Source: Magnetococcales bacterium | GTDB taxonomy: Bacteria; Pseudomonadota; Magnetococcia; Magnetococcales; Magnetaquicoccaceae | Length of the DNA: 64,000 nucleotides | NCBI GenBank assembly: GCA_011089965.1 | Contig: JAANAU010000004.1 | Span: 1 to 64,000, forward strand | Direction of reading: 5' to 3' | Shown here: positions 10,801 through 57,551 of the stretch, in pieces | How positions within the stretch are numbered: position 1 is the stretch's first letter | How the letters are laid out: each line of letters starts with the position of its first letter | Made by a program: the position numbers and the translations under genes | The notes under the pieces: generated by a model | The model's database searches: none | What the model was told of the DNA's origin: nothing | What the model saw: the letters and a program-made list of their open reading frames with translations, nothing else

Positions 10801-13800
10801 TGGACCACACCCGAGGTGGCTGCCCCAGCCCGATCCGTGGCTGTGATGCGCAGATCAATGCCTGCGGTATTGACCGTCACCGGGGTGCCGGTCAATGTGC
10901 CCGTCGTGGCATCAAAGGTCAACCAGGAGGGCAACGCGGACCCTTGCAACGGTTCCACCCCATACACCAGACGCTCCCCGGCATCGACATCCGCAAACAT
11001 GGTGGCGGGTACACGGAACTGGAACAAGTCTCCCAGCGTGGCGAACAGATCATCCGGCAGCTCCGCTGTGGTGGGTGCATCATTGATGTTGGCCACGGTC
11101 AACGTGATCACCTTGGTGATCGTGGTGCCATCCGCCCCCCGGGCACTCACCTGCAACGGAGTCACGCCCACCGCGTTGTTGGCAGGGGTTCCGGAAAGCA
11201 AACCGCTCTGAGCATCCCACTCCAGCCAGGTCGGCAGGTTTGCACCCGCCAGATTGACCAGGCTCCATTGGGGACGATCCAGTCCGGCAAAAACCGGATC
11301 ATCGGCCAACCGATGACGAAACGCCACATCTTCGATGGCCGTCGGGTTGGCGGGTGAGGTGGAAAGTATGCCCGCACCAGAGGTTGCCGCCACCCGGATC
11401 AGGGTGTTCTGGAAGTGGGACCAGGCCTGGTCCACGCCCACCAGAGTGTTCTGCCCCGTGGCTGCGGTCAGGAAGGTTTGCAGCGCAGAGTCAGCGGCAA
11501 AGACCGAAAGATCACGATCAAAATGGATCTGCACCCCTTGGGCGGCAGCCCGTGCCGTCTGGGAGATGGTGATGCCATCTTCCGGATTGCCGTTGGCATC
11601 CAAAGTCTGCAAGAAACGCAACAGGTTGGTGGTGGCATTCCAATCCCCATGACCAACCAGGTCCAGCGGGGTCACGGTGGTGCCACCCAGAGTTTGACCC
11701 AACACGATGTCGCCGATGGAAAAGGTCACCTGCTCACCGGGCAAGAACTGAAAACCGCCGCTGGCTCCGGTCTCTCCCGACCGGGAGGCCGTGACAAAAT
11801 GGACCCCTTCCACTTCGCTGTCGAGCAACGTACCGGTCAGATGCTCCACCACTTGCAGGGTGAAGACATCCGAAACCGTCCGGTTGGAGCCATCCGTGGC
11901 CGTCACCTTGACATAGGTGCTCCCCAGGTTGGCAGCGGTGGGCACACCACTGAAGAGACCCGTGGCCGGATCAAAATGCAACCAGGAGGGCAGAGGGGTG
12001 TTCGGGGTGAGATTGGCCGCACTCAAGGTCAACCGGTCTCCGACATCCACATCGGCAAAGGTTGTCGTCGGAATCGAAAACAGAAAGGCCCTGCCCACCG
12101 CAGCCTGCTGATCGTGCAACGTGGTCACCAGTGTCGGGGCATCGTTGACATTGGTCACGTTCAGGACAAACAGATCAGACACCGCATCCCCAGCCCGATC
12201 CGTGGCTGTCAGACGCAATTCGAGTCGGGCCACATCTCCATTGTCCGGAGTTCCGCTCACCACCCGGGTCTCAGGATCGAAATGCAACCAACCCGGCAAC
12301 GCCGACCCATCCCCCATGGAGAGGGCCAGGGTCAAAACATCATCGACCGAGGCATCGGCAAAAACAGACTCGGGAATGCGCAACAGAAACGCCTGATCCT
12401 CGATGGCCACCTGATCTGCCAAGGGATTGGCCACGGTCGGAGCCACATTGGGTGCATGCACGGTCAAACGGAAGGTGTCTGCTGCCAGACTTCCTGCCGG
12501 ATCGGTCACCGTGACCTTGACATTCACGACTCCCAGATCATGTACCCCCGGAGTCCCGATCAAACCGTGCGTGACCGCATCAAAACGAAGCCAGGCAGGA
12601 AGATCCCCTCCTGTAGCCAGATCCTCGACGCTCCAGGTCAAGAGATCTCCATCCACATCGGCAAAGGTGGCCTCCGGCAGGGCGAAACGGAAAGAGCGAT
12701 CCTGGAAGGCATGTTGATCGGCCACCGGTTGCATTAACTCAGGGGCATCGTTGACATTGGCCACCTGGATGGTGAAGTGGGTCGCCACCCTGGCACCATC
12801 GCTGTCCGAGGCTGTCACGCGCACGCCCAAAGATCCGGTATCCCCATTGCCAGGCAAACCCGTAAACATGCCGGTCCGGGCATCAAAGGTCAACCAGGCT
12901 GGCAAAGGAGTGCCATCCAGGCGCGTCGCTTCCAGAGACAGGGGGGCATCACTGTCCGGATCCAGGAACAGACCATCCGGCAGATGGAAGCTGAAGGCGC
13001 TCTCTTCCGTGGCTTGTTGATCGGTCATACTCAACCGCACCTCCGGGGCGCGATTGGCCGCAGCCACGGTCAAGCGGAAACCATACGAGGCACTCAGCAG
13101 CCCACTGTCGGTGGCAGTCATCCGCAAATCATAGATGCCGGGTGCTGTGGGTGTGCCGCGCAACGCCCCGGTGACCGGATCGATGCTCAACCAGGCGGGC
13201 AGAGTGCCGCCGCCGCTGCGAAAGAGTTGATAACTCAAAGTATCGCCGGCATCCAGATCGCTGAAATGACCCACCCCCGCCGTTGTCACGGCCATGGACG
13301 CATCCACAAAGATCCGCAGATCTTCCAACGGAGTCGTCACCATCGGGGCATCGTTGACATTGTTGACCTGAACCGTCCAATCCACCTCGGCACTGACTCC
13401 GCGCTGATCCCGGGCCGTCACGCGCACACTCCACTCCCCAACCGCGCCAAAGTCCGGACGACCACTCAAACTGCGGGTCACCGGATCAAAATGGAGCCAT
13501 TCCGGCAAAGACGCGCCATCGGCCAGGGTGGCCGACCAGGTCAAAAGATCCCCGGCATCCGCATCGACAAACTGATCGGCAGGAAGTACCGCCAGAAACT
13601 CCTGATTTTCCAGAACCGTCACCCGGCTGGGTGCTGCCTTGGCCGTGGGTGCATGATTGGGATGGGTCACGGTCAACGTGAGCAACGACGCCCCCACGGC
13701 ACCCGCAGGATCAGTGGCAGTCAAACGCAAAAGCACACGGGTGGCATCGCTGGCCTCCAGAACCCGGGTGGAACTCAAGACACCCGTTACCGGATCGATC

Positions 13801-16800
13801 TGCAACCACTCCGGAACGCTCCCGCCACCCACTTTGGTCAACGCATACTGCAACCCATCCCCATCCGGGTCGGTAAAGGTTCCGGGCAACAGGGCATAGT
13901 GATAACGGGTGCCGTAATCGATGTATTGATCGGGTATGGCGATGGCCGCAACCGGGGCATCATTGACATTGGTCACCACCAGATCAAAATCAGACGAGAC
14001 CACTGCATTCCGACCATCCTGGGCGCTGACCCGGATGGGGTATGTCCCCACCTGGTCGTTGCCGGGACGGCCAAAAAACGTCCCGGTCGTCGGATCAAAC
14101 ACCAACCAGTCCGGCAGTGACGCACCATCGCTCAAGAGGGCACTTAAACTCAAACGATCATTGGCATCGACATCCTGAAAGGTATTGTCCGGAATGGTCA
14201 AGAAAAAGAGCTGATCCTGGGCAATCCTCTGCGTCGTCAAAGGATGGGCCACGGTGGGGGGATTGTTGCGCGGCAAGACATTCAAAACAAACAAATCCGC
14301 AGCCTGCGCCGCCCCGGAATCGGTGGCGCTGACCCGGATGGCCAATGGCCCGATCTCAGGTGTGGCAGTGGTGGTAAAGGTGCGGGTGTCCGCATCAAAC
14401 AGAAGCCAGGAGGGCAAGGCCGTCCCATCAGCCCGGGTGGCTGCCAGAGTCAAAGAGTCCCCGGCATCCATGTCGGTAAACAAATCCGCAGGCAAGGTAT
14501 AGACAAAACCCGCACCCACCTCTGTGGTCTGATCCGGCACAGGCTGGGTCAAAACCGGCGCATCGTTGACATTGACCACGTGCAGAGTGAACGGATTGGT
14601 CACCACCCCACCACGACCATCGCTGGCCGTGACGACAATGGCCAGATCCCCCACCTGCTCATTGCCTGCCACACCGGAAAAAAGCCGTGTCAATGGATCA
14701 AAGGTCAACCAGGATGGCAATGGCTCTCCATTGGCCAAACGGGCCGTATAGGTCAGAGTATCGCTCTCATCCGCATCCCGGAACGCTTCGGTATTCAACA
14801 TGAAATAAAACGATTGATCCTCGTGGACCGTCTGATCGCTCAACGGTGCCACCACCACCGGGAGATGATTGGGGCGGGTCACGGACAAAACGAACAGATC
14901 CGAGGCCACACCTCCGGCACCATCGTTCACCGTCACCCGAATGCCCTGACTGCCCAGATGGGCCACTGTCGGAGTACCGGTAAAGGTCCGGGTGGCCGGA
15001 TCAAAATGGAGCCAACCCGGCAACGGTGCACCACCCGAAAGCTGCGCACTCCAGGTCAACTGCGCGCCCGGATCGACATCGGTGAAAACATCGGTGCCCA
15101 ACTGCCACTCAAAAGGCTGATCGGTCACCGCATAGGCATCATCAATGGGTTGATTGACCACCGGCACATCATTGACATTGGCCACCTGCAACGCAAAGGT
15201 GTCGGTCACCCAGGCACCAGCCGGATCCTTGACATCAACCGCAATCTGAAGCGTCCCCACATCCCCGTTCTGCGGAGTGCCGAAAAAGAGCCGGGTGGCT
15301 GGATCAAAGCCCAACCAGGCCGGCAAAGGCAACCCGCCCACCAATGTCGGCGTGATCTCCAAACCCGCATTCCCATCCGGATCCACAAAAGCACCCTCCG
15401 GAATCTGAAACAGGAATGGATCACCCTGACGCGCGTTCTGATCTGCCAAAGGTTGCGCCACGGTGGGAGGTTCGTTCGGCAGGGTGACGAGCATCAAAAA
15501 CAGATCAGAGTTGGTGGCACCACCCAGATCGGTCACGGTCAGCCGCACATTGAGCAGTTGCCCCACATCGGCCTCACCAGGCGTACCGGACAAAGTCCAG
15601 CTCGCCGCATCAAACTGCAACCACTCCGGCAGTGGGGCACCATCCGACAAGGCAATGGACGGAGTCAAACGGTCGCCCGGATCCACATCCACAAAGGCCT
15701 CACTCAGGGTGACGCGCAACAAGATCCCCTGACTGGCAAAACGATTGACCAGCGGTTCCACCAGAAGCGGGGCATCATTGACATTGTGCAGATCAATTCC
15801 GAACGATACCGAGGCGCTTTCACCCCCGGTATCCGTGGCCGTCACCCGCACCGTGATCTGGTTGCCGGTGACATCGGTCAACAACCCGGAAAACTGCCGC
15901 GTGGCCGGATCAAAACGCAACCACTCCGGCAAGGGTGAACCATCCGGCAGATCGGCATGCCAGATCAAGGTCTGCCCGACATCGACATCCACGATCAGAC
16001 CCGCTGGCACAACCGCAGCAAAACCCTCCTGCTCACGCACGGTCCAGTCCGGAACCAGATCCGGGTTCACCACCGGTGGATGGTTGACCGTATTCACGGT
16101 CAGGGTGAAATCGGCAGACACGCTCGCTCCGGCCTGATCCCGGGCCGTTACCCGCACCTCATATCCCCCCTGACTGCCAAACGGCGGGGTGATGTCGAAA
16201 TGTCGCCCCTGGGGGTCAAACAACACCCACTCCGGCAAAGGGGTGCCATTCTTCAGGGTTGCGGCATAGGTCAACAGATCCCCGGGATCCAGATCCTGAA
16301 ACAAACCCGCAGCCAGATCAAAACCCAGCGTACCCCCGGTCAAGACCTCACGATCCGCAATCGATCCCATCACCTCCGGGGCATCGTTGACATTGGCCAC
16401 CTGGAGCTGAAATGCGCCAGAAACAGACAACCCGGCACGATCCGTGGCCGTAACCCGCAGATCCAAAACGCCCACATCCCCCTGACCCGGCGTACCGGAA
16501 AAACTCCTCGTCGCCCCATCAAACTGCAACCACTCCGGCAACGCCCCTCCTCCCAGACGTGCTGCCGTCAGGGTCAAGGTGTCGCCCGCATCAGGATCCG
16601 TAAACGTTCCCTCGGGCAGAACAAAACGGAACAGGGCATCCTCTTGCGCGGCCTGGTTGGCAATCTCCTGCGCCAAAGGTTGGCGATTCGGTGGCACCAC
16701 CCGCAACACGAAATCGGTGGCAGCTGTCAGCCCGGCTCTGTCTTGGACCGTCACACGAAGGGTCAGATCCCGATTGGCCTCTTCGGCAGGCGGTGTGCCG

Positions 16801-45892: not shown

Positions 45893-46255
45893 TCACCCCA
45901 CTGGAGGCTGCGTGGCGTCGTGGCGCAACAACAAACGCTCCACCCGTTCACCCGCCACAATATGGCGATCCAGGATTTCGTCCACGTCTGCCAACGTGCG
46001 GTAGTGATACCACACCCCTTCCGGATAGATCACCAGCACCGGACCCAGTTCACAACGGTCCAGACAGCCGGATTGGTTGATGCGCACACTGCCCAGATTG
46101 GGCATGGCCTTGGCACGAAATTTCAAATGGCCCTGCAAATCCACCGCCCCCTTGCGGGCACAATCCCCTCTGGGATGGGCCGGATCGCGGCTGTTGGTGC
46201 AGCAAAATACATGAATATCATAAAACAAACCCTCTGAACCCTGTGACACCATCAC
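45893..46255 (-). CDS. Thioredoxin-like [2Fe-2S] ferredoxin
   Basis: 120 aa with the four-Cys pattern of thioredoxin-fold [2Fe-2S] ferredoxins: CCTNSRDPAHPRGDCARKG near the N-terminus and SGCLDRCELGPVLVIYPEG in the second half. It is probably a soluble electron carrier. Two ATG codons in a row start the gene (46255 or 46252). It heads the three-gene minus-strand unit with the DUF2155-like and TadA-like genes, and is divergent from the copper-type operon. Confidence 0.85.
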   Translation of the reverse strand: MMVSQGSEGLFYDIHVFCCTNSRDPAHPRGDCARKGAVDLQGHLKFRAKAMPNLGSVRINQSGCLDRCELGPVLVIYPEGVWYHYRTLADVDEILDRHIVAGERVERLLLRHDATQPPVG

Positions 46256-46546
46256 GCTCTCCTCAATTCACGAACATCCCGATTCCGCAACATTTGGAAA
46301 ACTCTCTCCAAAGATGATCCTATATCCTATCCGGAATCACCAGCACCTTGGTACAAAATCCTCATCATTGGCCGCTTTTCCTGCTGTGTCAGCGGTGTGT
46401 CAAATGACCGCATGCGTGTGGCAAATCACACACCAGAGAGATCAAGAGGATATTTATTTGTTTTTATATCATATAATTATCAGTTGGTCATCCATGTGCA
46501 ATCCCTCTCATTGGGATCACCATCATACCAAACTCAGGAGCTGCTC
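46256..46546. promoter_or_regulatory. Divergent intergenic region before the 14-gene operon
   Basis: 291 bp without a convincing gene. It is AT-rich toward the right (46440-46490), consistent with a promoter for the plus-strand operon, and it must also hold the promoter for the ferredoxin gene. I see no clear copper-responsive (CueR/CopY-type) dyad by eye. Confidence 0.4.
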
Positions 46547-46732
46547 ATGAAGTCATCCGCCCCGGGCGCAGCGCATCACAAACCGGTGCCGTTGGGTTCT
46601 TTATTGCTGGGAACGGGTCTGACCCTGACCGCACTCATTCTGATCCCGGCGCTGGCCCAACGCTGGGGCATTGGTGCCGGTCTGACCGGAGCCTTGCGCG
46701 TGGCTGCCACACGCGCTGCGCAAAAAATATGA
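46547..46732 (+). CDS. Small single-pass membrane protein, first gene of the copper-type operon
   Basis: 61 aa with one transmembrane helix (about residues 17-37, LGSLLLGTGLTLTALILIPA) and a basic C-terminus. The ATG has AGGAG about 7 nt upstream. No family recognised. It overlaps the next gene by four bases (ATGA), which supports it being real. As the opener of the operon it may be a small subunit of the ABC transporter below. Confidence 0.65.
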   Translation: MKSSAPGAAHHKPVPLGSLLLGTGLTLTALILIPALAQRWGIGAGLTGALRVAATRAAQKI

Positions 46733-47100
46733 ATCGATCCTGTTCTCCCCGGAACCGTGGCATGCCTGGCTGGGCATGGCGACCTGCCACCGTGGTGGCC
46801 TGGCTGGCCGTTCTGACCCTGTTGGCTTTTGGCGCAACCGTGCTGGATGCCTGGTGGTGGCGCGGCACCCGAACCACTCACGCCACAACGCAACAACTGG
46901 TGGGACAACTCCTTTTGACCGATCTGGCCCTGTTTACCGAAGCCCGCTACACCCGCCATATCAGTCAGGCGGATCGTCACACCCCATTTCAGGATCATCC
47001 GGTGGCGCTGGAACACTTCCCGAGCGGTTCTCTGGTCTCCCCTGTACGGATTCCGACGCACATGCCCACGGATCAGCCCGATGCCCACACCCTGGATTGA
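46729..47100 (+). CDS. Membrane-anchored periplasmic protein, unknown
   Basis: 123 aa with one N-terminal membrane helix (about 20-40: VVAWLAVLTLLAFGATVLDA) and a periplasmic-side tail rich in His and Thr. Tryptophans cluster after the helix (WWWRG). No family recognised. It overlaps both neighbours (4 nt upstream, 20 nt downstream). It could be an accessory subunit for the permease encoded next. Confidence 0.65.
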   Translation: MNRSCSPRNRGMPGWAWRPATVVAWLAVLTLLAFGATVLDAWWWRGTRTTHATTQQLVGQLLLTDLALFTEARYTRHISQADRHTPFQDHPVALEHFPSGSLVSPVRIPTHMPTDQPDAHTLD

Positions 47101-48217
47101 ACGACAGGCAGCCTTCATCGATCATGCCGTGCGCGCCATGGGCAGACGACGCACCCACCAGATCGGTTTGTGGCTGGTCTATACCCTGCTGGTGTTTCTG
47201 CTGGCATCGGTGATGCTGTTTGCCCACGCCTTGCGCCACGAAGCGCGCCTGCTGTTGCAGGATGCCCCGGAACTGGTGGTCCAACGCCTGGAAGGGGGAC
47301 GTCACGCCCTGATCTCTGAAACCCATCTTCAAATCTTGCACGGCATTCGGGGGGTGGGAACGATCACGCCCCGGCTGTGGGGCTATTACTATGATCCGGT
47401 CTCCCGCGCCAACTACACCCTGATGACCCCGCCCGCCAATCCACCACCACCCGGTCAGATGACCATCGGTGCCGGAGTCTCCCGAGTGAGCGGATTGACC
47501 AGCGGAGATCTCTTTTCCATGCCAGGCAGTGACGGCATCAAACGTACCCTGGTGGTGCGCGATCTGTTGTCCGCGGCCTCGGAACTGGTCAGCAGCGATC
47601 TGATCCTGATGAACGCTGCCGATCTGCGCCCATTGCTGGGCATTCCGGCTGGCTGGTACACCGATGTCGCCCTGACCGTGGCCCAACCCAGAGAAGTGAA
47701 CAAAGTGGCCGAAAAGGTGATGCAACGCATGCCGGATGCGCGCCCGATCCAACGCCAGGAGCTGTTGCGCACCTATCATGCCCTGTTCGACTGGCGCGAA
47801 GGGATTCTGCTCACCCTCCTGGGCGTGGTCCTGTTGGCGTTTGCGATCCTGGTCTGGGACAAAGCCAGCGGCCTGAGCGCCGATGAACGACGGGAGATCG
47901 GCATTCTCAAGGCCATTGGCTGGCAAACCGGCGAAGTGCTCGCCATGAAACTCTGGGAGGGAACCCTGGTCTCCATGAGTGCCTTTCTGATTGGCTATGT
48001 GACAGCCTATGTGCATGTCTTCGTGACTCCGGCCCCTCTGATCGGTGCGGTACTCAAGGGATGGGCCGTACTCTATCCGGAGTTCGTACTGACCCCGCGC
48101 GTGGAGGGCTTGCAGGTGCTGACTCTGTTCTTTTTCACGGTCTTTCCCTTTATTGCCGCCCTGGTGATCCCGGCCTGGAAGGCTGCCATCACGGATCCGG
48201 ACGCGGTCATGCGATGA
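47081..48217 (+). CDS. MacB/FtsX-type ABC transporter permease
   Basis: 378 aa with the FtsX/MacB plan: helix 1 at about 28-50, a large periplasmic domain about 51-240, then three helices near 247-270, 295-320 and 347-370. ERREIGILKAIGW after helix 2 is the classic coupling motif of the family. It pairs with the ATPase encoded next through a four-base ATGA overlap. MacB-type systems work as mechanotransducers or exporters of lipoproteins and other substrates; here the neighbours suggest a link with copper-protein maturation. Confidence 0.9.
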   Translation: MPTPWIERQAAFIDHAVRAMGRRRTHQIGLWLVYTLLVFLLASVMLFAHALRHEARLLLQDAPELVVQRLEGGRHALISETHLQILHGIRGVGTITPRLWGYYYDPVSRANYTLMTPPANPPPPGQMTIGAGVSRVSGLTSGDLFSMPGSDGIKRTLVVRDLLSAASELVSSDLILMNAADLRPLLGIPAGWYTDVALTVAQPREVNKVAEKVMQRMPDARPIQRQELLRTYHALFDWREGILLTLLGVVLLAFAILVWDKASGLSADERREIGILKAIGWQTGEVLAMKLWEGTLVSMSAFLIGYVTAYVHVFVTPAPLIGAVLKGWAVLYPEFVLTPRVEGLQVLTLFFFTVFPFIAALVIPAWKAAITDPDAVMR

Positions 48218-48891
48218 TCGAACTGACCGGTGTGAGTAAAATTTTCAACGAGGGTCAACCGAACGCCTTCCCCGCCGTGGATGGTATTGACCTGCTCCTG
48301 CCATCCGGGGAGGTGACCCTGTTCACCGGTCCTTCGGGGTCGGGCAAAACCACGCTGCTGACCTTGATCGGCTGTCTGGCCAAACCCAGCATGGGACGGA
48401 TCCGCATCGATGGTCAGGCGGTTTCCGGATTGCCGGAGCGTTTTCTGACCGCATTGCGCCGTACCACGTTCGGTTTTGTATTTCAGAAATTCAATCTGAT
48501 TCACGGTCTGAGCGTGCTGGAAAACGTCATGCTGCCCGCTGCCCCCCTGGGTCTGCCCCGGCAACAGGTGATGCGGACCGCCATGGAAATCCTGGAAAAA
48601 CTCGACCTGACACGCAAAGCCCATGCCCGGGTGGAGTGGCTTTCAGGAGGAGAGGCGCAACGGACGGCCATGGCCCGCGCCCTGATCAACCGCCCGCGTG
48701 TGGTGATCGCCGACGAACCCACGGCCAATCTCGATTCGCGGCTGGGCAGCGCCTTTCTCCAGATCATCGCAGACCTGCGTCATGACGGACACACGGTATT
48801 GATTTCAAGTCATGACCCTTTGGTGTTGCATGCACCGGTTGTGGAACGGGTGGTGACAATGCGCGATGGTCGCATCGTGGAGAGGGGCTGA
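48214..48891 (+). CDS. ABC transporter ATP-binding protein (MacB/LolD-like)
   Basis: 225 aa, complete: Walker A GPSGSGKTT, Q-loop VFQKFNLIHGLSVLENV, signature WLSGGEAQR, Walker B VVIADEPTANLDS, H-loop ISSHDP. The type fits LolD/MacB/FtsE. It partners the permease just upstream and is directly followed by the next gene without a gap. Confidence 0.93.
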   Translation: MIELTGVSKIFNEGQPNAFPAVDGIDLLLPSGEVTLFTGPSGSGKTTLLTLIGCLAKPSMGRIRIDGQAVSGLPERFLTALRRTTFGFVFQKFNLIHGLSVLENVMLPAAPLGLPRQQVMRTAMEILEKLDLTRKAHARVEWLSGGEAQRTAMARALINRPRVVIADEPTANLDSRLGSAFLQIIADLRHDGHTVLISSHDPLVLHAPVVERVVTMRDGRIVERG

Positions 48892-49890
48892 ATGATCTTC
48901 CAACCTGCGATTCTCGCCCTGCTGTTTGCCGATCTGGTGGCAATCGCGCTGCTCGCCTGGACCGTAATACTGGCCTATCGGGTGGTGCGTCATTGGGATC
49001 TCAATCTGGGATCGGCCCGGCAGTTGCGTCTGGAGAGAGAGACGGTGCTGGCAACGACTCTGGTCCTGTTTGCCTGTCTGACCCAGGCATTGGCGTTATT
49101 GCTGTTCGTGCATACGGCCAACGCCTTGTCGGAGCTGTTCACCGGGGCCATGTGCGCCGTGGGCACGCTCAACGCCGCACCCGGAGGCAACGATGCCCTG
49201 CTGCTGCGCATGGGATTGTTCTTCTTTGCCGCCTCCTGGCTGGTGGTGCATCACCTGGATCAGCAGTGTCCGGATTACCCTTTGACCCGTGGCAAATTCG
49301 GCCTGCTGTTGGGACTGCTGCCCTTGTCCATGCTGACCGCCTGGTGGCAGGGCCGCTATTTTCTCGGACTGAAAAGCGATGTCATCACCTCCTGTTGCGG
49401 CGGACTGTTCGATGCGCGGAGCATGACTGTGGTTGCCGAATGGAGTGGCTGGCCGGTCCGGTCTGCCATGTGGGCCGTCGCCATCTCCTGGTTGGCCGTG
49501 ATCATCACAACGGCCCGAGTGGCCATCAGCGGACGCGGTGCCCGTCTGTCGGCCCTGCTGGCCGGAGTCAATCTGCCAATCGCCCTGGCCGGGGTGATCT
49601 CGTTCGTCTCCTCTTATGTCTACGAACATCCCAATCACCATTGCCCATTCTGTCTGTTTAAAACAGAATATCACGGCATCGGCTATGCGCTCTATGTGCC
49701 GTTGTTCCTGGCCACGGCTTTGTCACTGGGATTGGGGGTGGCTGCGCACCTGAGTGGTGTGGGCGCCATTCCTGGACCAGCCCTGCCTGTAGCCCGCCGC
49801 ATGGCCAATACGGTCATCGGGCTGCAAGGGTGGCTGGCCGTGTTGATCCTTGGGGTGATTTCCGGTTCTCATCTGCGTTTGATGGAGTGA
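48892..49890 (+). CDS. Polytopic membrane protein with Cys/His motifs
   Basis: 332 aa with about eight membrane helices. Between helices are conserved-looking metal- or thiol-type motifs: HHLDQQCPDYP, SCCGGLFD and HPNHHCPFCLFK. No family I can name. The clustered Cys and His on loops, and the genes for a TlpA-like thioredoxin, P1B-ATPase and NosL proteins around it, suggest a membrane copper-binding or redox protein. Start directly abuts the ATPase stop. Confidence 0.75.
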   Translation: MIFQPAILALLFADLVAIALLAWTVILAYRVVRHWDLNLGSARQLRLERETVLATTLVLFACLTQALALLLFVHTANALSELFTGAMCAVGTLNAAPGGNDALLLRMGLFFFAASWLVVHHLDQQCPDYPLTRGKFGLLLGLLPLSMLTAWWQGRYFLGLKSDVITSCCGGLFDARSMTVVAEWSGWPVRSAMWAVAISWLAVIITTARVAISGRGARLSALLAGVNLPIALAGVISFVSSYVYEHPNHHCPFCLFKTEYHGIGYALYVPLFLATALSLGLGVAAHLSGVGAIPGPALPVARRMANTVIGLQGWLAVLILGVISGSHLRLME

Positions 49891-49893
49891 TGC

Positions 49894-50412
49894 ATGCTGG
49901 CAAAATGGCAATTGGCCGTGGTGGTGATGGTGGTACTCCTGATGGCCGGGCTGATGGGTGCGTGCGACAAAGCACCGGTGCTGGCCAAAGGGGATCCGGC
50001 ACCCCCGTTTGCACTGGAAGATCTGCGTGGTGCCACGCGACCGTTTCCGGAAAGGTTTGCCGGTCAACCCGTCGTGATCCGCTTCTGGGCCGACTGGTGT
50101 CCGGCCTGCCGGTCGGACATGAAGGTGCTGGATCAACACTATCGTCAACGCCAGGAGCAAGGACTTAAAGTGCTGGCAGTCAATGTGGGTCAGGATCGGG
50201 CCACGGCGCAACGCTTTACCGATGAATATCAACTGACCTTCGACGTATTGCTGGACCGATCCTCCGAAATCGCCCGACGCTACGGAGTGAATGCCTTGCC
50301 CATGACCTATCTGATCGCTCCGGATGGCAAAATAATTAATAAAATCATCGGAGAGACCGATACCGCCACCCTCACCAACCAACTGAACCGGCTGATGGGA
50401 GGAAACCGGTGA
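49894..50412 (+). CDS. TlpA/ResA-like periplasmic thioredoxin (probable lipoprotein)
   Basis: 172 aa. The N-terminal signal ends in a lipobox-like MGAC, suggesting a lipoprotein. The thioredoxin domain has FWADWCPACRSDM (active CPAC) and the cis-Pro region NALPMTYLI. TlpA/ResA/Sco-type proteins reduce Cys in copper sites or cytochrome c apoproteins; the operon points to copper. It overlaps the next gene by four bases. Confidence 0.9.
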   Translation: MLAKWQLAVVVMVVLLMAGLMGACDKAPVLAKGDPAPPFALEDLRGATRPFPERFAGQPVVIRFWADWCPACRSDMKVLDQHYRQRQEQGLKVLAVNVGQDRATAQRFTDEYQLTFDVLLDRSSEIARRYGVNALPMTYLIAPDGKIINKIIGETDTATLTNQLNRLMGGNR

Positions 50413-50612
50413 TGCCACCCGCATCCAATGTCTGTCATTTGTGTGGCTTGCCCTTGCCCGGCAACCCGACCGCCGTACACACAAACGATGGGATGCTCTT
50501 GAGATTTTGCTGTGACAGTTGCCGCCAGATCCATCACATGCTCCATCCCGGGACACCCTCTGGCGGACGCGGCATGGATCCGACCCACCGGTCTGATCTG
50601 GAATTTTCATGA
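50409..50612 (+). CDS. Stand-alone Cys-rich metal-binding protein (CcoI-N-like)
   Basis: 67 aa. CHLCGLPLPG at the start and FCCDSCRQIHHML further on match the pattern of the metal-binding domain found at the N-terminus of CcoI/FixI copper ATPases (CxxCGxPxP, FCCxGC). Here it is a separate protein, with the second motif FCCDSC. It may load the P1B-ATPase encoded three genes downstream or sense metal. It overlaps the TlpA-like gene by four bases. Confidence 0.75.
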   Translation: MMPPASNVCHLCGLPLPGNPTAVHTNDGMLLRFCCDSCRQIHHMLHPGTPSGGRGMDPTHRSDLEFS

Positions 50613-50648
50613 ATCAAACACAACCACCCTTTCAATCAAGGAACCCGC

Positions 50649-50885
50649 ATGGCCATCAACCCTTCGTTCTTTCGTCATCCTGTCGTCATGTTCGCGCTGG
50701 GTGCCGCCACCGGCATCATGGCCTACAAATACCGCAAGGAGATCATGGAAGCTGTTTCACGCGCCAGCGATGCCAGCCGTGATTTCATGTTGCATCAAAA
50801 AGAGTCGCTCAACGATCTTCTGGAGGAGGCGCGTGCCGCTGAAGCCCAAGGTGGTGGCCACGCAGCACCCCGCCACGATTCATGA
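50649..50885 (+). CDS. Small membrane-anchored protein next to the P1B-ATPase (YtxH/DUF5132-like)
   Basis: 78 aa with one hydrophobic helix (about 11-27) then a charged amphipathic tail (YRKEIMEAVSRASDASRDF). Short proteins of this shape (YtxH- or DUF5132-like) are found beside heavy-metal ATPases in other bacteria; this assignment is by pattern only. It overlaps the next gene by four bases (ATGA). Confidence 0.65.
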   Translation: MAINPSFFRHPVVMFALGAATGIMAYKYRKEIMEAVSRASDASRDFMLHQKESLNDLLEEARAAEAQGGGHAAPRHDS

Positions 50886-51514
50886 ACGATCCGACGACCC
50901 TGTTCACCCAGGTCGTGGTGCGCTATCGGGGTGAGGGCCTGTTGCGTCTGGAACTGCCCTCTTCCCTGCGCCATCCTGCGGTGGGACGCTATTTGACAGC
51001 TGCCCTGCACAACGGTTTCGGCGTGCGCCGCGTGGGTTTTGAGGTGGAAAGCGGACGGCTGGCCATCCACTATGAACCCACCATGACCGATGACCGGCGC
51101 ATGGCCCAACACCTGGCGCAACTTCTGATTCAACTTCAATCCCCGGCGACCCGGATCCCCCCCAAACCCGCCTCCCCAACGCTCAAGGAGCGCCTGCTCG
51201 CGGTTCCGGCCCTGCGCTCCATGATGCGCCGCGTGCCGATATGGCGCGCCCAGGCGCTGATCATGAAACAGATCATCGGACAACAGATGGAAAACCGTCC
51301 GGCCCTGCAAATCTTCGGCAAGAAACCCGAAACCGCTGTCATCAATTTCATCAACGAAATGGTGACTTTTTACCTGATCCGCACCCATTGGGACCGGATC
51401 ACCCGGGTCTGGTTGCGGGATCCCCTCGGTCATTACAAAGAGTGGCTGACGTTATGCTATCTGGTCTTCCTGCTGGTGCGTTCCCGACGGAGAGAGGATG
51501 ATGACAACGCCTGA
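50882..51514 (+). CDS. HMA-like domain protein with C-terminal hydrophobic segment
   Basis: 210 aa. The first 85 residues form an HMA-like ferredoxin fold without the CxxC motif, similar to the N-terminal part of the ATPase encoded next (shared pattern: R-L-R-L...HPAV...VRRV-FEVESGRLAIHYEP). A middle basic region and a C-terminal hydrophobic stretch (about 182-198) follow. Such HMA_2-type domains accompany P1B-ATPases. It overlaps the ATPase gene by 17 nt. Confidence 0.7.
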   Translation: MNDPTTLFTQVVVRYRGEGLLRLELPSSLRHPAVGRYLTAALHNGFGVRRVGFEVESGRLAIHYEPTMTDDRRMAQHLAQLLIQLQSPATRIPPKPASPTLKERLLAVPALRSMMRRVPIWRAQALIMKQIIGQQMENRPALQIFGKKPETAVINFINEMVTFYLIRTHWDRITRVWLRDPLGHYKEWLTLCYLVFLLVRSRRREDDDNA

Positions 51515-53981
51515 CACCCGGTTTCACGTGGTGCATCGGCTGCACCGCCGGATCCGGGTGGTGATTCCCGGCTTGCAACGCGATGCCGAGCGGTGCGCGC
51601 TGGTCGCCGTATTGCTGAACAAGCACCCCGCCGTACGCAAAGTCCGGGTCGAAGCGCGCATCGGTTCTCTGGCCATCCATTTTGATCCGGAGTCGATGCC
51701 CCCAGACCTCCTGCTCGCACTGCTCGACAGAATGCTGACCTCGGTCCTGGCCGCCCAAAACCCATCCACATCCTGTGCCGATCCATCCGCACCCGCAGAG
51801 CTGGAGACAACCGGCATGGGAACAACCCTCGCAGTCGAAGGGATGAGTTGCGCGTCATGCGCCATGCTGATCGAAATGCGTTTGCGTCGCCATCCGGGCG
51901 TGACCCGGGCCAAGGTCCATTTCACCTCCGGGATGCTGGAGGTGGCTGGACGCATGGAACGCCGCGAGGTCGTACAGGTGGTGGGGGCATTGGGATATGT
52001 GGTGCGTCCCCTGGATACCCTGGCCCAGCGCCGCCTGGTGATTGAACGGGAGCGGCAGTTGCTGGCCCAGGCACGACGGCGTCTGTGGCTGGCCGCAGGC
52101 TTGACCCTGCCCGTGATGATCCTGGGCATGCTCATGCCCCGGTCGTGGATCTGGAAGAGCCTGGAATTTTTGTTGACAACCCCGGTCGTCTTCGGGACCG
52201 GAGCACCGATCTTCCAAAGAGCCTGGCGGCTGGCACGTCACGGCAGCGCCAACATGGACACCCTGATCGCCATCGGAGCCGGAGCCGCCTACACCTACTC
52301 CGTACCGGTCTGGTTGCGCGGTGGGCACCATCTCTATTTCGAGGCCGCAGCCAGCATCATCACCTTTGTGTTGTTGGGACGCTATCTGGAAGAGAAGGCC
52401 AAAGGCAAAGCCGGAGACGCCATTCGTCAATTGATGGATCTCCAACCCGAGACCGCCACCCGGATCCTGGCCAATGGTCACGAGGAGATCGTGCCGATTG
52501 ATGCCTTGCAGGTCGGCGAACGGATTTTGATCCGGCCCGGCGAACGCATTGCCGCAGACGGGGTGGTGGTGGCGGGAACTTCTGCCGTGGATGAATCCCT
52601 GCTGACCGGCGAAAGCCTGCCAGTCAACAAATCCCGGGATGACAAGGTTGTGGCCGGATGCATCAATGGTGCCGGAGCATTACGGGTGGAGGTGCGTGCT
52701 GTCGGCACGGAAACGGTCCTGGCCGGCATCATCCATCTGGTGGAACAGGCACAAAACAGCCGGTTGCCGGTGCAAAAGCTGGTGGATCAGGTGTCGGCCC
52801 GCTTTGTGCCGGGTGTCCTGATCCTGGCTGGCATGACCGCCTTGTATTGGTTGGGCCGTGGTCGGCCACTCGGCGTGGCGCTGACCAATGCGGTCTCGGT
52901 GCTGTTGATCGCCTGCCCCTGCGCCCTGGGACTGGCCACGCCAACGGCGATCATGGCCGGAACCGGACATGCGGCACGCCGGGGCATCTATATTCGCGGC
53001 GGGGAGAGCCTGGAGATTGCCTCCCGCTTGCAGGTGGTCATTCTCGACAAAACCGGCACTCTGACCGCAGGTCATCCCCATGTGGTCGATTTTCACAACG
53101 TCTCCTCCCTGCCGAAACGAGAGATCCTGGCCCTGGCGGGCAGTGCGGAACAGCCATCCGAACACTTCCTCGGACGGGCGGTGGTCAACCATGTGCGCGC
53201 AGCCCGAATCAAAATTGCGCCGTGCGACGGATTTCAGGTCCATCCGGGCCAGGGAGTGGAAGCGCAGGTGGCCGGTCGTTCCGTGTTGATCGGCACAGCG
53301 GCCTGGTTGACAGAGCGCCAGATCGATCCTCAACCTGTGCTGGACTCTGCCGCACGGTGGGCAGACCAGGGAATGACCCCGCTCTTGATGGCCATTGACG
53401 GTCAGGCGAGCGCGGTCTTTGCCGTGGCTGATCCGATACGCAGCGATGCCCGTTTGGCTGTCAAACGGTTGCAGCAGATGGGATTGCGGGTGGTGATGGT
53501 GACCGGCGATCTGCGCGCCACCGCGCAACATGTCGCAACCAGCGTGGGCATCCGGGATGTTCTGGCCGAAGCGCGTCCGCATCACAAAGTGGCGGTGGTA
53601 CACCAGCTCAAGGCCAAAGGGTGGCGCGTGGCCATGGTCGGGGATGGCATCAACGATGCCCCAGCTCTGGCCGCTGCGGATGTGGGATTCGCCATGGGCA
53701 GCGGGGCAGATATCGCCATGGAGAGTGCAGGCATGACCCTGGTGGGCGGAGAGCTGCTCAAACTGCCCGAGGCGATTCTGTTGAGTCGTCGCACCCTCTC
53801 TGTGATCCGACAAAATCTCTTCTGGGCGTTGATCTACAACCTGGTGGCCATTCCCGAGGCTGCCCGGGGACGGCTCAACCCGATGATCGCCTCGGCAGCC
53901 ATGGCCATGAGTTCGGTATCGGTCGTCTTGAGCGCCCTGCGCCTGCAACATGTCCCACCGGAAGGAACCAAACATGACTGA
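51498..53981 (+). CDS. Copper-type P1B-ATPase
   Basis: 827 aa. An HMA-like domain without CxxC (about 1-85) and a true HMA (GMSCASCAMLIE) lead into the core. Motifs: TGE in LLTGESLPVNK, CPC in LIACPCALGLATPT, phosphorylation site ILDKTGTLTAG, hinge VGDGINDAPAL, and the last helices with YNLVAIPEAA and MAMSSVSVVLSALRL, typical of Cu+ ATPases. The SEHPLG motif reads SEHFLG, so the usual Pro is Phe. Start ATG at 51498 (or 51501). It should export Cu+ to the periplasm for detoxification or for loading copper enzymes. Confidence 0.93.
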   Translation: MMTTPDTRFHVVHRLHRRIRVVIPGLQRDAERCALVAVLLNKHPAVRKVRVEARIGSLAIHFDPESMPPDLLLALLDRMLTSVLAAQNPSTSCADPSAPAELETTGMGTTLAVEGMSCASCAMLIEMRLRRHPGVTRAKVHFTSGMLEVAGRMERREVVQVVGALGYVVRPLDTLAQRRLVIERERQLLAQARRRLWLAAGLTLPVMILGMLMPRSWIWKSLEFLLTTPVVFGTGAPIFQRAWRLARHGSANMDTLIAIGAGAAYTYSVPVWLRGGHHLYFEAAASIITFVLLGRYLEEKAKGKAGDAIRQLMDLQPETATRILANGHEEIVPIDALQVGERILIRPGERIAADGVVVAGTSAVDESLLTGESLPVNKSRDDKVVAGCINGAGALRVEVRAVGTETVLAGIIHLVEQAQNSRLPVQKLVDQVSARFVPGVLILAGMTALYWLGRGRPLGVALTNAVSVLLIACPCALGLATPTAIMAGTGHAARRGIYIRGGESLEIASRLQVVILDKTGTLTAGHPHVVDFHNVSSLPKREILALAGSAEQPSEHFLGRAVVNHVRAARIKIAPCDGFQVHPGQGVEAQVAGRSVLIGTAAWLTERQIDPQPVLDSAARWADQGMTPLLMAIDGQASAVFAVADPIRSDARLAVKRLQQMGLRVVMVTGDLRATAQHVATSVGIRDVLAEARPHHKVAVVHQLKAKGWRVAMVGDGINDAPALAAADVGFAMGSGADIAMESAGMTLVGGELLKLPEAILLSRRTLSVIRQNLFWALIYNLVAIPEAARGRLNPMIASAAMAMSSVSVVLSALRLQHVPPEGTKHD

Positions 53982-54657
53982 GACCCTCTTCATGGCCTTT
54001 CTGGCCGGATTGCTGGGGAGCGGCCACTGTCTGGGCATGTGCGGCAGTCTGGTATCGGCCTTTTTCGTGCGCTTTGTACCGCCCCACGCCCGGTTGGGGG
54101 CCATGGTGGCCTATCACGGGGGACGGGTGGCCATCTACACCCTGGTTGGCCTGTTGGCAGGGGCCTTGGGCATGGCTTTGACCTCCACGGGTCTGATCGG
54201 CAAGGTGCAAGGGGTGTTGCAGATCGTTGTCGGGGTGATCGTGATCGCTCTGGGTCTGGATCTGCTCGGTGTGAGCTGGTTTCGGATCCGCTACGACTTC
54301 TGGCCGATCAACCGTCTGCAACGGTTTTTCATACGCGCCGGGGAGAACGGGCCTGTCCGGGGGGCATTGGTGGGCGGCATGGTCAACGGGGTGATGCCCT
54401 GTTCACTCACCCTGGCCATGGCGGTCAAGGCCACGGCCACGGAGAGTGCTTTGACAGGCGGCGCTCTGATGTTGGCCTTTGGATGCGGCACCCTGCCGGC
54501 CATGCTGTTTGTCAGCACCCTGTTCGGACGGCTGGGTGCCACGGTACGCGGTCATCTGCTCAAGGCGGCGGCAGTGGTGGTGATCATTCTGGGTGTTGGC
54601 ACTCTGATTCAAGGTATCCGTTATTTCAGCATCATGAGACATCTGGCAGACCACTAA
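53974..54657 (+). CDS. SafE/DsbD-type six-helix membrane protein
   Basis: About 227 aa, six membrane helices. GSGHCLGMCGSLVSAF near the start and NGVMPCSLTLAMAVKA later are the paired Cys motifs of the sulfite-exporter TauE/SafE/DsbD-like family (also seen near cbb3 oxidase assembly genes). It probably moves reducing equivalents or copper across the membrane. Its ATG overlaps the ATPase stop by 8 nt. Confidence 0.88.
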   Translation: MTETLFMAFLAGLLGSGHCLGMCGSLVSAFFVRFVPPHARLGAMVAYHGGRVAIYTLVGLLAGALGMALTSTGLIGKVQGVLQIVVGVIVIALGLDLLGVSWFRIRYDFWPINRLQRFFIRAGENGPVRGALVGGMVNGVMPCSLTLAMAVKATATESALTGGALMLAFGCGTLPAMLFVSTLFGRLGATVRGHLLKAAAVVVIILGVGTLIQGIRYFSIMRHLADH

Positions 54658-54675
54658 TCAAAAAATCGGGAGAAT

Positions 54676-55296
54676 ATGGAACACATGCATACCAGTCGTC
54701 GTCAATTGGTGTTGGGAATGTTGGTGGGAGGGGCATGGGCCGGAGATCTGATGCCAGAGGCCCTGGCAACCACCTGCCCGACCAATGGAACCCCTGAGCA
54801 GTTCACCCCAAAAAAACCCAAAGACCCCAACCCCCTGGAACAAGAACTGGAAAAATATCCCAACTGTCCTTATTGCGGCATGAATCGGCGGGAACACCAT
54901 GCCAGCCGCCATTTGATCCACTTCGAGGATGATCTGGTCGATGGGGTCTGTTCGCTGCATTGTGCGGCGATCAGTCTGGCAATCAACCTGGATCGTGGTC
55001 CAAAAGCCATATATGTCGCTGATTTTGGCGAAAAACAGGAACCGCGTCCCCTGGTGGGAACCGGTTCAGCGGTCTATCTTCTCGGTTCCACGATCCAGAC
55101 GGCCATGACCACACGGGGCAAACCGGGTTTTGCAGATCGGAACGTGGCTGCTGCCATGCAAACCGAAAAGGGTGGGACAGTGGTCGATTTTGAGGCCGCA
55201 CTGGTGGCAGCCTATGGGGATATGGCCAAGGACACCCTGGCCATTCGCAAACGGCGCCTGGAACGCCGCAAGAAAATGAATCAGGGTGGTGAATGA
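54676..55296 (+). CDS. NosL-like protein with Tat-type signal
   Basis: 206 aa. The start contains SRRQLVLGMLVGGAWAG, a twin-arginine-like signal. The mature part has the NosL hallmark NCPYCGMNRREHHASRH (CxxCGM), then the DLVDGVCSLHCAA region and a basic C-terminus (RKRRLERRKK). NosL proteins bind Cu(I) for N2O reductase; related ones occur elsewhere in copper-enzyme assembly. The start has GGGAG close by; ATG at 54685 is an alternative. It is followed by a second NosL-like gene overlapping by 4 nt. Confidence 0.85.
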   Translation: MEHMHTSRRQLVLGMLVGGAWAGDLMPEALATTCPTNGTPEQFTPKKPKDPNPLEQELEKYPNCPYCGMNRREHHASRHLIHFEDDLVDGVCSLHCAAISLAINLDRGPKAIYVADFGEKQEPRPLVGTGSAVYLLGSTIQTAMTTRGKPGFADRNVAAAMQTEKGGTVVDFEAALVAAYGDMAKDTLAIRKRRLERRKKMNQGGE

Positions 55297-55799
55297 TTAT
55301 ACGTGCATTCTGGCTGCTCTGGCTGATTCTGGCCCTGGAAATCTGGCCGGGGAACGCGCTGTCTGGATCGCCGCCCACCGACCAGGCCGTTCCGGCTGGT
55401 GCCAAATGTCCGGTCTGTGGCATGTTCGTCGCCAAATACCCGGAATGGGTCGCCCTGATCGTCTGGCAGAATCATGACGTGAGCCACTTTGATGGAGCCA
55501 AGGATCTGATGCGTTTTCTGCTGCATCCGGAGCGCCACCCATCTGGACAGGACCGGTCACAGATTGCCAATCTGTATGTGACGGAATACTATGGCCTGAA
55601 GCGTATTCCCGCCCGTTTGGCCTGGTATGTGACCGGATCGGATGTCCATGGTCCCATGGGACACGAATTGATCCCTTTGGCCAATGAACAGGATGCGCAG
55701 GAGTTCATGCGCGATCATGCCGGACGCACCATTCTGCGGTTTGATCAGATCACGCCGCAGATTCTCTCCACTCTGGAATCATCAGGAGCCACACCATGA
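55293..55799 (+). CDS. Second NosL-like exported protein
   Basis: 168 aa, with an N-terminal Sec-type signal (about 1-25). CPVCGMFVAKYPEW is the NosL CxxCGM motif; the rest includes HDVSHFDGAKDLMRF and YYGLKRIPARLAWYVTGSD, and HGPMGHELIP. This copy is more typical than the preceding one (54676), and the two are not close to each other. Its start overlaps the previous stop by four bases (ATGA), as does its own stop with the next start. Confidence 0.88.
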   Translation: MIIRAFWLLWLILALEIWPGNALSGSPPTDQAVPAGAKCPVCGMFVAKYPEWVALIVWQNHDVSHFDGAKDLMRFLLHPERHPSGQDRSQIANLYVTEYYGLKRIPARLAWYVTGSDVHGPMGHELIPLANEQDAQEFMRDHAGRTILRFDQITPQILSTLESSGATP

Positions 55800-56068
55800 C
55801 AACCCAGTCACTGATTCCACGGCATCACCCGGCAGTTCGGGAACGGCATCAACAACGACAAATGGCCAAGGTGGGCATGGGTGCTGCCATGGTCACGCTG
55901 GTATGCACGGGTCTGGTGGGTGGACGCACCTTGAAACAGGTTCATCTGGTGGCCGGAATGGCCTTGTTGGGGTTCACCTTCTGGCATTGGCAGCTCAATC
56001 AACCGGTCCCACGACTCACTTCCCGCCACACCCCGGAAGAGATGGACGATGATCGAAAACCTCAATGA
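55796..56068 (+). CDS. Small membrane protein, last gene of the copper-type operon
   Basis: 90 aa with two hydrophobic helices (about 27-45, 50-67) and HxxxxxHW residues (KQVHLVAGM; FWHWQLN). The start overlaps the upstream stop (ATGA). No family recognised. The His and Trp pattern resembles small haem or metal membrane subunits but proves nothing. No terminator is visible before the convergent gene 36 bp away. Confidence 0.65.
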   Translation: MTTQSLIPRHHPAVRERHQQRQMAKVGMGAAMVTLVCTGLVGGRTLKQVHLVAGMALLGFTFWHWQLNQPVPRLTSRHTPEEMDDDRKPQ

Positions 56069-56104
56069 CCATCCAGCGTTGACTGCACCTCTCGAACATG
56101 CATC

Positions 56105-56650
56105 TCACCCCTCCTGGATCTCTCCCTCGATCCATCCCCCATCCGCTTCCTGGTGTCCCTCACCATCCATGACTTTGAACAGCAAACCATAGGAGACGCG
56201 CCAACGCATCCCTTCGCGGGTGACAATGGAAACCGTTTTCTGGTTGAGTTGGCGGATGATTCCATACTGCTCCCGGTTTTGACGATCATGGAAGCCGATG
56301 GAGTCACCAATCCTCAATTGATTCTTGTCCAGGCGATTCTGTCCCTGATGTGGATGGATATCCGTATCCACACCGGCCAGATTCACGGCATGAAGGGGGA
56401 CGTTCCATCGCTGCCCATCCGTCTTGTCCAACACCAGTACGTTGGTGCGCTGAACGTCGATCACCTCAGCAACAGACTGTCGGTTCTTTCGACCGTTGAA
56501 GTAAGAGATCACCATCCCTGGGTGCAGATGCCGTTTGACTTGCGCCAGGCGCTCCGGTTGATCCAACATACCCTCGATACCAACCTTCAATCGATACAGA
56601 TCGAACAGGGTGGCACCTTGCAATTCCTGAAGTATTGCCGAATAATCCAT
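56105..56650 (-). CDS. Hypothetical protein (181 aa)
   Basis: No recognised family. An N-terminal helix (SAILQELQGATLFDLYRLKVGIEGM) is followed by two or three small beta-rich units of related look (GMVISYFNGRKNRQ; DSIGFHDRQNREQYG; KTVSIVTREGMRWRV), perhaps repeats of an SH3-like fold with an RW ending. No signal or membrane segment. It converges on the copper-type operon and lies 118 bp downstream of the 73-aa gene. Confidence 0.7.
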   Translation of the reverse strand: MDYSAILQELQGATLFDLYRLKVGIEGMLDQPERLAQVKRHLHPGMVISYFNGRKNRQSVAEVIDVQRTNVLVLDKTDGQRWNVPLHAVNLAGVDTDIHPHQGQNRLDKNQLRIGDSIGFHDRQNREQYGIIRQLNQKTVSIVTREGMRWRVSYGLLFKVMDGEGHQEADGGWIEGEIQEG

Positions 56651-56768
56651 GCTCTACGCTCTTTTCATACCCATCTTTGACCGGATCCACCCAGGAGCCG
56701 GGGGGGGGATGGTTTGGAGAGGTGCTGACTCCGCTCTTTCCCCGACTCCTGTGCCCCCATCCCGGGGT

Positions 56769-56990
56769 TCAGGCTGCTTCCCGCCTGGTCATCTCATTGA
56801 TGTTGAAATACATATCCGTCAAGATCTTGCGACACTCCTCTGATTCCACATAAACGTCGATGGCCTGAATCGACCCTCCTACATCATACGACTCCTCCAG
56901 ATAGATTTTCGCATTCAACCCCGAGGCCACATCCAGCAAGCACCCCAACCCCTCACTGTTGATCTGACCAAGAAACACTTTCCCTTCCAT
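56769..56990 (-). CDS. Small hypothetical protein (73 aa)
   Basis: 73 aa, no family recognised. Acidic, with VFLGQINSEGLGCLLDVAS and a helix CRKILTDMYFNINEM near the C-terminus. The ATG at 56990 follows GGGGGAA at a good spacing; a longer frame exists upstream but has no such support. It may form an operon with the 181-aa gene downstream. Confidence 0.65.
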   Translation of the reverse strand: MEGKVFLGQINSEGLGCLLDVASGLNAKIYLEESYDVGGSIQAIDVYVESEECRKILTDMYFNINEMTRREAA

Positions 56991-57128
56991 AATGATTCCC
57001 CCTTCTCGGTTTACCGGTTGATTTCCCCAAGCGCATGTTTTCGATCCAGACGTGCATGGATCACACAGCCAAAATCCCTGGCGCATCCTCTCATCACCGT
57101 CATACCACCCCCATTCTAGGCAACACAA

Positions 57129-57551
57129 TAAACGAAATCTGCTGCGCTGGCAAACGATTTTATTAGAAAATAATAATAATCTAATTCGATTTTATTCCAT
57201 TTCTAAAAATTCTTAAAGTTTTTGCAATCCACAAAAACAAAATCTGATTCGACTAATCGCAGTAGTTTGCTTGACAAGTAATTACTTTAGATATTAAATT
57301 CTCAACAAATCAACAGGGCCGAACAGACGGCAAGAAGGCCGCAAGCGGTCAATTTCTGACGGCATTGACCTGAAGATAAAGCTGTTTTTCGCCTTAAACG
57401 CTGATCAGAGTGATCTGACCGCTGGACGCAACAGCACCGACACGCAGACACGACAAACAGATCATGATGCTCATGATGTTCATCAGACGGATCTTCAGCC
57501 ACTGCCAGCATCAACAAGGGCAATCAGAACAGTCGAAGATCAATGCTGTCT
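57129..57551. promoter_or_regulatory. AT-rich 420-bp gap with a promoter-like site and palindromes
   Basis: No convincing gene. On the plus strand TTGACA (57271-57276) and TTAAAT (57294-57299) are 17 nt apart, a sigma-70-like pair. AAGTAATTACTT (57276-57287) is a perfect 12-bp palindrome inside the spacer, placed like an operator. GGTCAAT (57347-57353) and ATTGACC (57364-57370) form a second inverted repeat downstream. The predicted transcript would run into the gap and antisense to the cheX-like gene; a small RNA is possible but unproven. Confidence 0.35.

Follow-up and report, generated by a model that had tools for sequence, protein, structure and literature searches.

What is the role of two dissimilar NosL-like proteins, here called NosL1 and NosL2, that are encoded one after the other and seem to leave the cytoplasm by different routes? 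We asked this of a pair of genes in the window, i.e. the whole stretch of 64,000 nucleotides of Magnetococcales DNA that was analysed. An earlier note on the same DNA proposed that two export routes suggest that one of the proteins may bind metal before export. The accessible text of PMC6530538 regards N2O reductase as the one pivotal enzyme in the destruction of N2O and shows that the copper which NosL supplies to it is limiting. In the accessible literature that was searched, neither a Tat-type NosL nor a NosL pair was found described. If the reading preferred below is true, a two-chaperone module tied to clade II nosZ and using opposite export routes would be an undescribed branch of the copper supply to N2O reductase.

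The membership of both proteins in the NosL family is well supported. NosL1 scores 47.1 bits and NosL2 110.7 bits against PF05573 (NosL), where the gathering cut-off is 24, and at E up to 1 the same profile matches 45 of 45 NosL1 relatives and 39 of 39 NosL2 relatives. The two sequences are 23% identical in BLASTP (E 3e-4), i.e. they are related yet dissimilar, and the end of NosL1 and the start of NosL2 share the sequence ATGA. The tandem of unlike proteins reported in the earlier note was thus real, and its coordinates exact, Table 1. In a tree of 47 sequences NosL1, NosL2 and ordinary NosL each have a clade of their own, with support of 1.0, 0.88 and 0.87, respectively. A copper-RiPP-related profile, NF050125, also weakly matched 12 of 45 NosL1 relatives (best E 0.0004; window E 0.33), which we judged to be chance similarity.

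For NosL1 a sequence search of solved structures gave at best E 0.5, so that a comparison of folds was needed. The AlphaFold models of NosL1 and NosL2 have a pLDDT of 88.5 and 88.8, respectively, and the top Foldseek matches of both are solved NosL chains. Against 7og7, Foldseek gives a TMt of 0.70 for the NosL1 model and 0.77 for that of NosL2. VIA-align superposes 128 residues of NosL1 on 7og7 (Z 14.0, rmsd 2.8).

Table 1. The NosL pair and the other genes of its same-strand run, in window coordinates. Some bit scores are followed by the family cut-off.
Product	Coordinates	Strand	Characteristics
Small protein, 123 aa	46729..47100	+	Likely membrane anchor; no Pfam/NCBIfam match; conserved LTDLALFTEARYTRH...FQDHP.ALEHFP.GSL
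FtsX-type ABC permease, 378 aa	47081..48217	+	Weakly LolCE-like; PF02687 28.5 bits; TIGR02212 41.4 bits, below cut-off 362
ABC transporter ATPase, MacB/LolD/FtsE kind	48208..48891	+	PF00005 102.7 bits; start chosen by us (longest ORF begins at 48061)
332-aa protein	48892..49890	+	Probably multi-spanning membrane protein; contains SCCG and HHHCPFC; no family scores above its cut-off
TlpA/ResA-like thioredoxin	49894..50412	+	WCPAC; PF00578 94 bits; PRK03147 ResA 117.2 bits, below cut-off 170
67-aa Cys-rich ORF, tentative	50409..50612	+	GTG start; PF12156 19.1 bits, below cut-off 27
78-aa ORF, tentative	50649..50885	+	One likely membrane segment
210-aa protein	50882..51514	+	No Pfam match; precedes the ATPase, as it does in relatives
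Copper-type P1B ATPase, 827 aa	51498..53981	+	Heavy-metal domains; TIGR01511 560 bits, above cut-off 397
DsbD_2-type membrane protein	53974..54657	+	PF13386 145 bits (scanned from 53950); overlaps the ATPase stop
NosL1, 206 aa	54676..55296	+	Tat-type NosL-fold protein; CPYCGM and CSLHC; basic C-terminal helix
NosL2, 168 aa	55293..55799	+	Sec-type NosL-fold protein; CPVCGM and GPMGHE
90-aa ORF	55796..56068	+	Start overlaps the NosL2 stop

Relatives were collected with a scan based on a three-member NosL1 alignment, which matched 159 stretches, of which 120 were confirmed and the best 80 kept. These 80 best loci of the 120 come mainly from Pseudomonadota, with Desulfobacterota, SAR324 and one acidobacterial MAG; by accession, L078 shares a genome with L105 and L086 with L112. 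In 70 of the 80, NosL2 adjoins NosL1 and has the same orientation. It lies 948 bases further on in L102 and is inverted nearby in L114, and it was not found in the remaining eight. In three of these eight (L038, L056, L092) the reason is a contig end no more than 130 bases away, and in five (L040, L041, L087, L093, L112) NosL1 is apparently alone, at least 1.8 kb of downstream sequence holding no NosL2 match. In L112 an apparent gene for a TonB-dependent receptor (6639-9002) ends 11 bases before NosL1 (9013), and matches to TonB-type receptors also lie near NosL1 in L087, L093, L108 and L114.

Pairing was also surveyed in two genome sets. Among 48 genomes of the organism's own order, two adjacent NosL matches occur in G000, G031 and G038 only (the G031 locus and L036 are probably one and the same contig, each contig having a length of 51077 bases). 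Among 150 genomes from the family of Thauera (G081), 24 have a NosL1 match of at least 160 bits, and the remaining matching genomes reach at most 45 bits. NosL2 matches of at least 190 bits are found in 23 genomes, all within the 24 and each with a NosL1 as same-strand neighbour; the sole one of the 24 without NosL2, G215, has its NosL1 at a contig edge. NosL2 was never seen without NosL1 in the 150 genomes. Extra NosL1 copies without NosL2 are present in G094, G114, G188 and G194, and G188 has four NosL1-type matches with a single NosL2. A tblastn search of plasmid records with NosL1 gave no match.

Conserved residues were counted in 79 NosL1 proteins (77 of the best 80 loci, L035 and the window, three without CxxCG being dropped) and in 74 NosL2 proteins (72 loci, L035 and the window). 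The CxxCGM motif that had been read in both window proteins takes the form CPYCGM in NosL1 and CPVCGM in NosL2, and its C, C, G and M are invariant in 79 of 79 and 74 of 74 sequences, respectively. Equally invariant are one later Met in NosL1 and the Met of GPMG in NosL2, where the following H is kept in 70 of 74 proteins. A further invariant motif of NosL1, C-S-x-H-C, is absent from NosL2 and was missed at the first reading; its C, S, H and C are all found in 79 of 79. In total, the invariant residues of NosL1 include four cysteines and one histidine, compared with two cysteines in NosL2. The basic tail described in the earlier note is also confirmed: the window protein ends in IRKRRLERRKKMNQGGE, and two tail arginines, R188 and R191 (numbering from the second ATG), are invariant in all 79.

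In the accessible text of PMC6530538 the likely copper binding of NosL is assigned to a C-x-M motif. This motif and a conserved later Met are present and invariant in both subfamilies, and the CSxHC of NosL1 is an extra beyond it. We consider it probable that NosL1 and NosL2 act as paired copper chaperones, as predicted from these residues, the fold and the conserved adjacency.

The pair comes towards the end of a series of same-strand genes, 46729-56068, with overlaps between the ends of the ATPase and DsbD_2 genes, of NosL1 and NosL2, and of NosL2 and the 90-aa ORF. From this layout and the overlaps we infer a single operon. At gathering score no RNA elements were found within 46000-57200. 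The 123-aa protein contains a strongly conserved TEARYTRH...FQDHP.ALEHFP.GSL and in relatives directly precedes the FtsX permease. The 67-aa ORF, upstream of the P-ATPase, weakly resembles the metal-binding domain of cation ATPases. Of the other 81 loci compared, only four contain sequences similar to the 90-aa ORF, in three of them not beside NosL2. For the 332-aa protein, CPFC is present in 45 of 45 relatives' frames and SCCG in 38 of 45, which makes it a candidate copper or thiol-redox membrane protein. Together, the FtsX, ABC ATPase and 332-aa genes (each above 140 bits) accompany 45 of the best 80 loci of 120, and 26 of the 41 loci longer than 18 kb. The permease and the ATPase belong to the same families as LolCDE/MacB-type ABC transporters, but they fall below the lolCE and LolD cut-offs, and no adaptor protein is among the Pfam matches of the operon.

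We lean towards reading the pair as a periplasmic Cu(I) chaperone module at the end of a copper operon, with N2O reductase as the likeliest client. According to this model, the P1B ATPase would move Cu(I) into the periplasm, and the TlpA-like thioredoxin, the DsbD-like protein and the CPFC membrane protein would keep the thiols of chaperones and client reduced; the ABC transporter presumably has a role as well. NosL1 would arrive folded via Tat and NosL2 via Sec, and the two would hold Cu(I) and pass it on to a cuproenzyme of the periplasm, for which N2O reductase is the likeliest candidate.

In 12 of the best 80 loci of 120 (L065, L076, L079, L080, L083, L088, L096, L102, L104, L105, L106, L113), several nos genes are found no more than about 9 kb from the pair, where we roughly estimate that about one in 80 would be expected by chance. 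The queries for this search were proteins from L033, L065, L080, L104 and L112. Weak or single matches to NosF, NosG, NosH or NosD in L037, L041, L086 and L112 were not counted, and matches to NosC or NosL-type queries alone at other loci were excluded. L104 has nosZ-C-B-D-F-Y on one side of the pair and the FtsX set, and on the other side two NosL genes, NosG and NosH. NosZ and NosD were identified there by Pfam, whose cut-off is narrowly missed by one of the two NosL genes; the remaining genes we take to be NosC, B, F, Y, G and H, after the naming of clade II clusters. The same genes are found in L113, with nosZ lying outside the stretch examined. In L065, L080 and L105 the pair is followed by a gene of presumed Crp type, presumable PCuAC and Sco genes (we assigned these three names from the sequences) and nosZ; the NosZ of L065 is of the Sec-dependent type. 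Laboratory denitrifiers with the pair include Thauera aminoaromatica S2 and Sulfurisoma sediminicola, in the latter of which nosZ is nearby.

The 150 genomes show the same link. Clade II nosZ is present in 18 of 24 genomes with the pair and in 25 of 126 others (Fisher 3e-7), and for nosZ of any kind the figures are 21 of 24 and 69 of 126 (p 0.003), while clade I nosZ alone is if anything under-represented (3 of 24 with the pair, 44 of 126 without, p 0.03); all these Fisher values overstate independence because the genomes are related by descent. Among the three pair genomes counted as lacking nosZ, G103 has pieces of a broken clade II nosZ, and G098 and G059 have weak matches only. The pair is not required for clade II nosZ, since 25 of 43 genomes with clade II nosZ lack it; of all 90 nosZ-bearing genomes in the sample, 69 are without the pair. 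In the organism's own order all three genomes with the pair have a NosZ match, as do 22 of the other 45. NirK was rejected as a client: it is over the cut-off in 3 of the 150 genomes, none of which has the pair. Clustering of NosL in general with N2O reductase had been seen earlier in a survey of beta-proteobacteria (PMC6769254, accessible part). Taken on its own, the claim that N2O reductase is the main client appears to us moderately likely.

In the genome of the window the nos cluster is on another contig (C58). There NosR-like, NosZ, NosD and NosL were identified by Pfam and NosF and NosY by position, NosF also by a weak match. The NosZ is of clade I, the Tat-dependent type (1053 bits), and the ordinary NosL is a lipoprotein with an LTAC lipobox, separate from the window pair. 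The pair is not beside nosZ, and its neighbourhood in the window names no client. That it is the NosL of N2O reductase in the strict sense is not supported, because the pair has no lipobox and no nosDFY neighbourhood; none of the adjoining window genes scanned is nosD, nosF or nosY. The window pair is probably an accessory route to N2O reductase, beside the ordinary lipoprotein NosL. In the accessible text of PMC6530538, NosL serves CuZ and may supply CuA under copper shortage.

The position away from nosZ would suit a pair that matures some other periplasmic cuproenzyme, for instance a CuA/CuB haem-copper oxidase, with the link to nos reflecting a shared need for copper in denitrifiers. In the genomes of 50 of the best 80 loci, a NosZ search (E 0.001) found 33 with a match (4 of them fragments only) and 17 with none, which fits this alternative, as does the thioredoxin: TlpA reduces the CuA ligands in oxidase assembly, according to the accessible part of PMC7558416. 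All three Competibacteraceae/Contendobacter loci (L041, L044, L050) are among the 17, and in L044 and L050 a TlpA-like gene is ahead of the pair, without the FtsX set. However, the several nos genes near 12 of the best 80 loci of 120 and the enrichment of clade II nosZ speak against it, and we regard another client as rather unlikely, though it is the best of the alternatives.

A further question is how the two putative chaperones would reach the periplasm. The window NosL1 begins MEHMHTSRRQLVLG...ALATT, with the twin-arginine motif TSRRQLVLG before a moderately hydrophobic stretch. NosL2 begins MIIRAFWLLWLILALEIWPGNALS and has no RR. These are the twin-arginine-type and Sec-type starts of the earlier note, and they are typical of the two subfamilies. 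With start codons picked by ribosome-site score, RR is present in all 79 NosL1 proteins, followed by x-hydrophobic in 78, with a lysine at the Tat position in 55; the corresponding numbers for the 74 NosL2 proteins are 21, 19 and 1. With the pattern used, no lipobox was found in either set; L097, a relative dropped from the NosL1 set, has a VAGC lipobox. A count of RR over the whole upstream frame (42 of 74 NosL2) was discarded, as many frames ran into sequence overlapping NosL1 in another frame. Mean peak hydropathy is 1.66 for NosL1 and 2.30 for NosL2, in the direction expected for Tat versus Sec.

Tat profiles point the same way among the relatives. At E up to 1, TIGR01409 matches 20 of 45 NosL1 and 1 of 39 NosL2 sequences (best E 0.0006), and PF10518 17 of 45 and 1 of 39 (best E 0.0003). 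The signal was not selected by the scan, because its patterns, [ET]KYPxCPY and DGxCSLHC, lay in the protein body, although the tblastn ranking could slightly favour signal-bearing relatives. The host genome carries tatC (245 bits). Judged from signal sequences, export of NosL1 by Tat and of NosL2 by Sec is well supported. The earlier claim of two routes holds for the subfamilies at the level of sequence, with two reservations: a minority of NosL2 proteins look Tat-like, and the window NosL1 itself matches neither TIGR01409 nor PF10518 at E up to 1. The NosL2 proteins of L110, L111 and L113 start Tat-like, i.e. the split is not absolute, and the NosL2 export route appears to switch in some lineages.

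Does a Tat signal mean that NosL1 is loaded with metal before export? We consider such loading improbable. In the accessible text of PMC6530538, N2O reductase with a mutated Tat leader stays in the cytoplasm, folded and copper-free, which argues against the simple inference from Tat export to loading before export, and the assembly of N2O reductase is largely periplasmic according to the accessible part of the review PMC7558416. The full version, in which NosL1 would take up Cu(I), or a mixed metal site formed with its CSxHC cysteines, in the cytoplasm, fold around the metal, cross Tat loaded and hand the metal to NosL2, which would feed N2O reductase, seems to us if anything a little less probable. 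The pair would be a clean test case for Tat delivery of a pre-loaded copper chaperone.

The operon could also serve copper tolerance, i.e. export and buffer a surplus of copper, for which NosL1 and NosL2 would act as sinks in the periplasm. The P1B ATPase within the operon fits this, as do matches to TonB-type receptors, which lie no further than 9 kb away in 5 of 80 loci, one of which supplied the query. On the other hand, only 10 of the 41 loci that exceed 18 kb contain the ATPase (above 600 bits), it was not found in L035 (from G038), and the thioredoxin and DsbD-like neighbours and the linkage to nosZ fit assembly better, so we hold tolerance to be very unlikely. Just as improbable in our view is a NosL1 that mainly reduces thiols or metal for its partner NosL2 instead of carrying copper, with CPYC and CSxHC as a redox or mixed-metal site, since the surplus of invariant cysteines and the thioredoxin and DsbD-like neighbours would suit it but NosL1 retains the NosL fold and conserves the CGM Met and the later Met, the residue types proposed for NosL copper binding in the accessible text of PMC6530538.

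As paired chaperones, NosL1 and NosL2 can be compared with known systems. They share with NosL from Paracoccus denitrificans and Shewanella denitrificans a common fold (7og7, 7osf, 7znq), the C-x-M motif, the later Met and the link to nos. The known NosL is a Sec-signal lipoprotein of the nosDFYL set, as far as the accessible parts of PMC6530538 and PMC7558416 describe it, whereas the window pair is a tandem without lipobox in a separate copper operon, one member being Tat-type with CSxHC and a basic tail. A co-encoded nosDFY was not found among the adjoining window genes scanned but is present in relatives such as L104 and L113. Bacillus azotoformans likewise has more than one NosL per genome, but there the copies belong to separate nos clusters, and the accessible text of PMC3475470 describes NosL as a lipoprotein and no Tat-type. 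Csp1 copper storage proteins are likewise copper proteins with a Tat signal (PMC7558416, accessible part), but Csp1 is, by the family name of TIGR04401, a four-helix bundle and serves storage, unlike a chaperone pair with the NosL fold. The TlpA-Sco-PCuAC pathway for CuA also combines a thioredoxin with periplasmic copper chaperones (PMC7558416, accessible part); Sco and PCuAC are near the pair in L065, L080 and L105, and the window operon has NosL-fold proteins instead.

The desulfobacterial cluster L104 contains a third, more distant protein of the NosL family (13324-13833, 70.9 bits) after the 332-aa gene, and a NosL-like gene is also found there at 14027.
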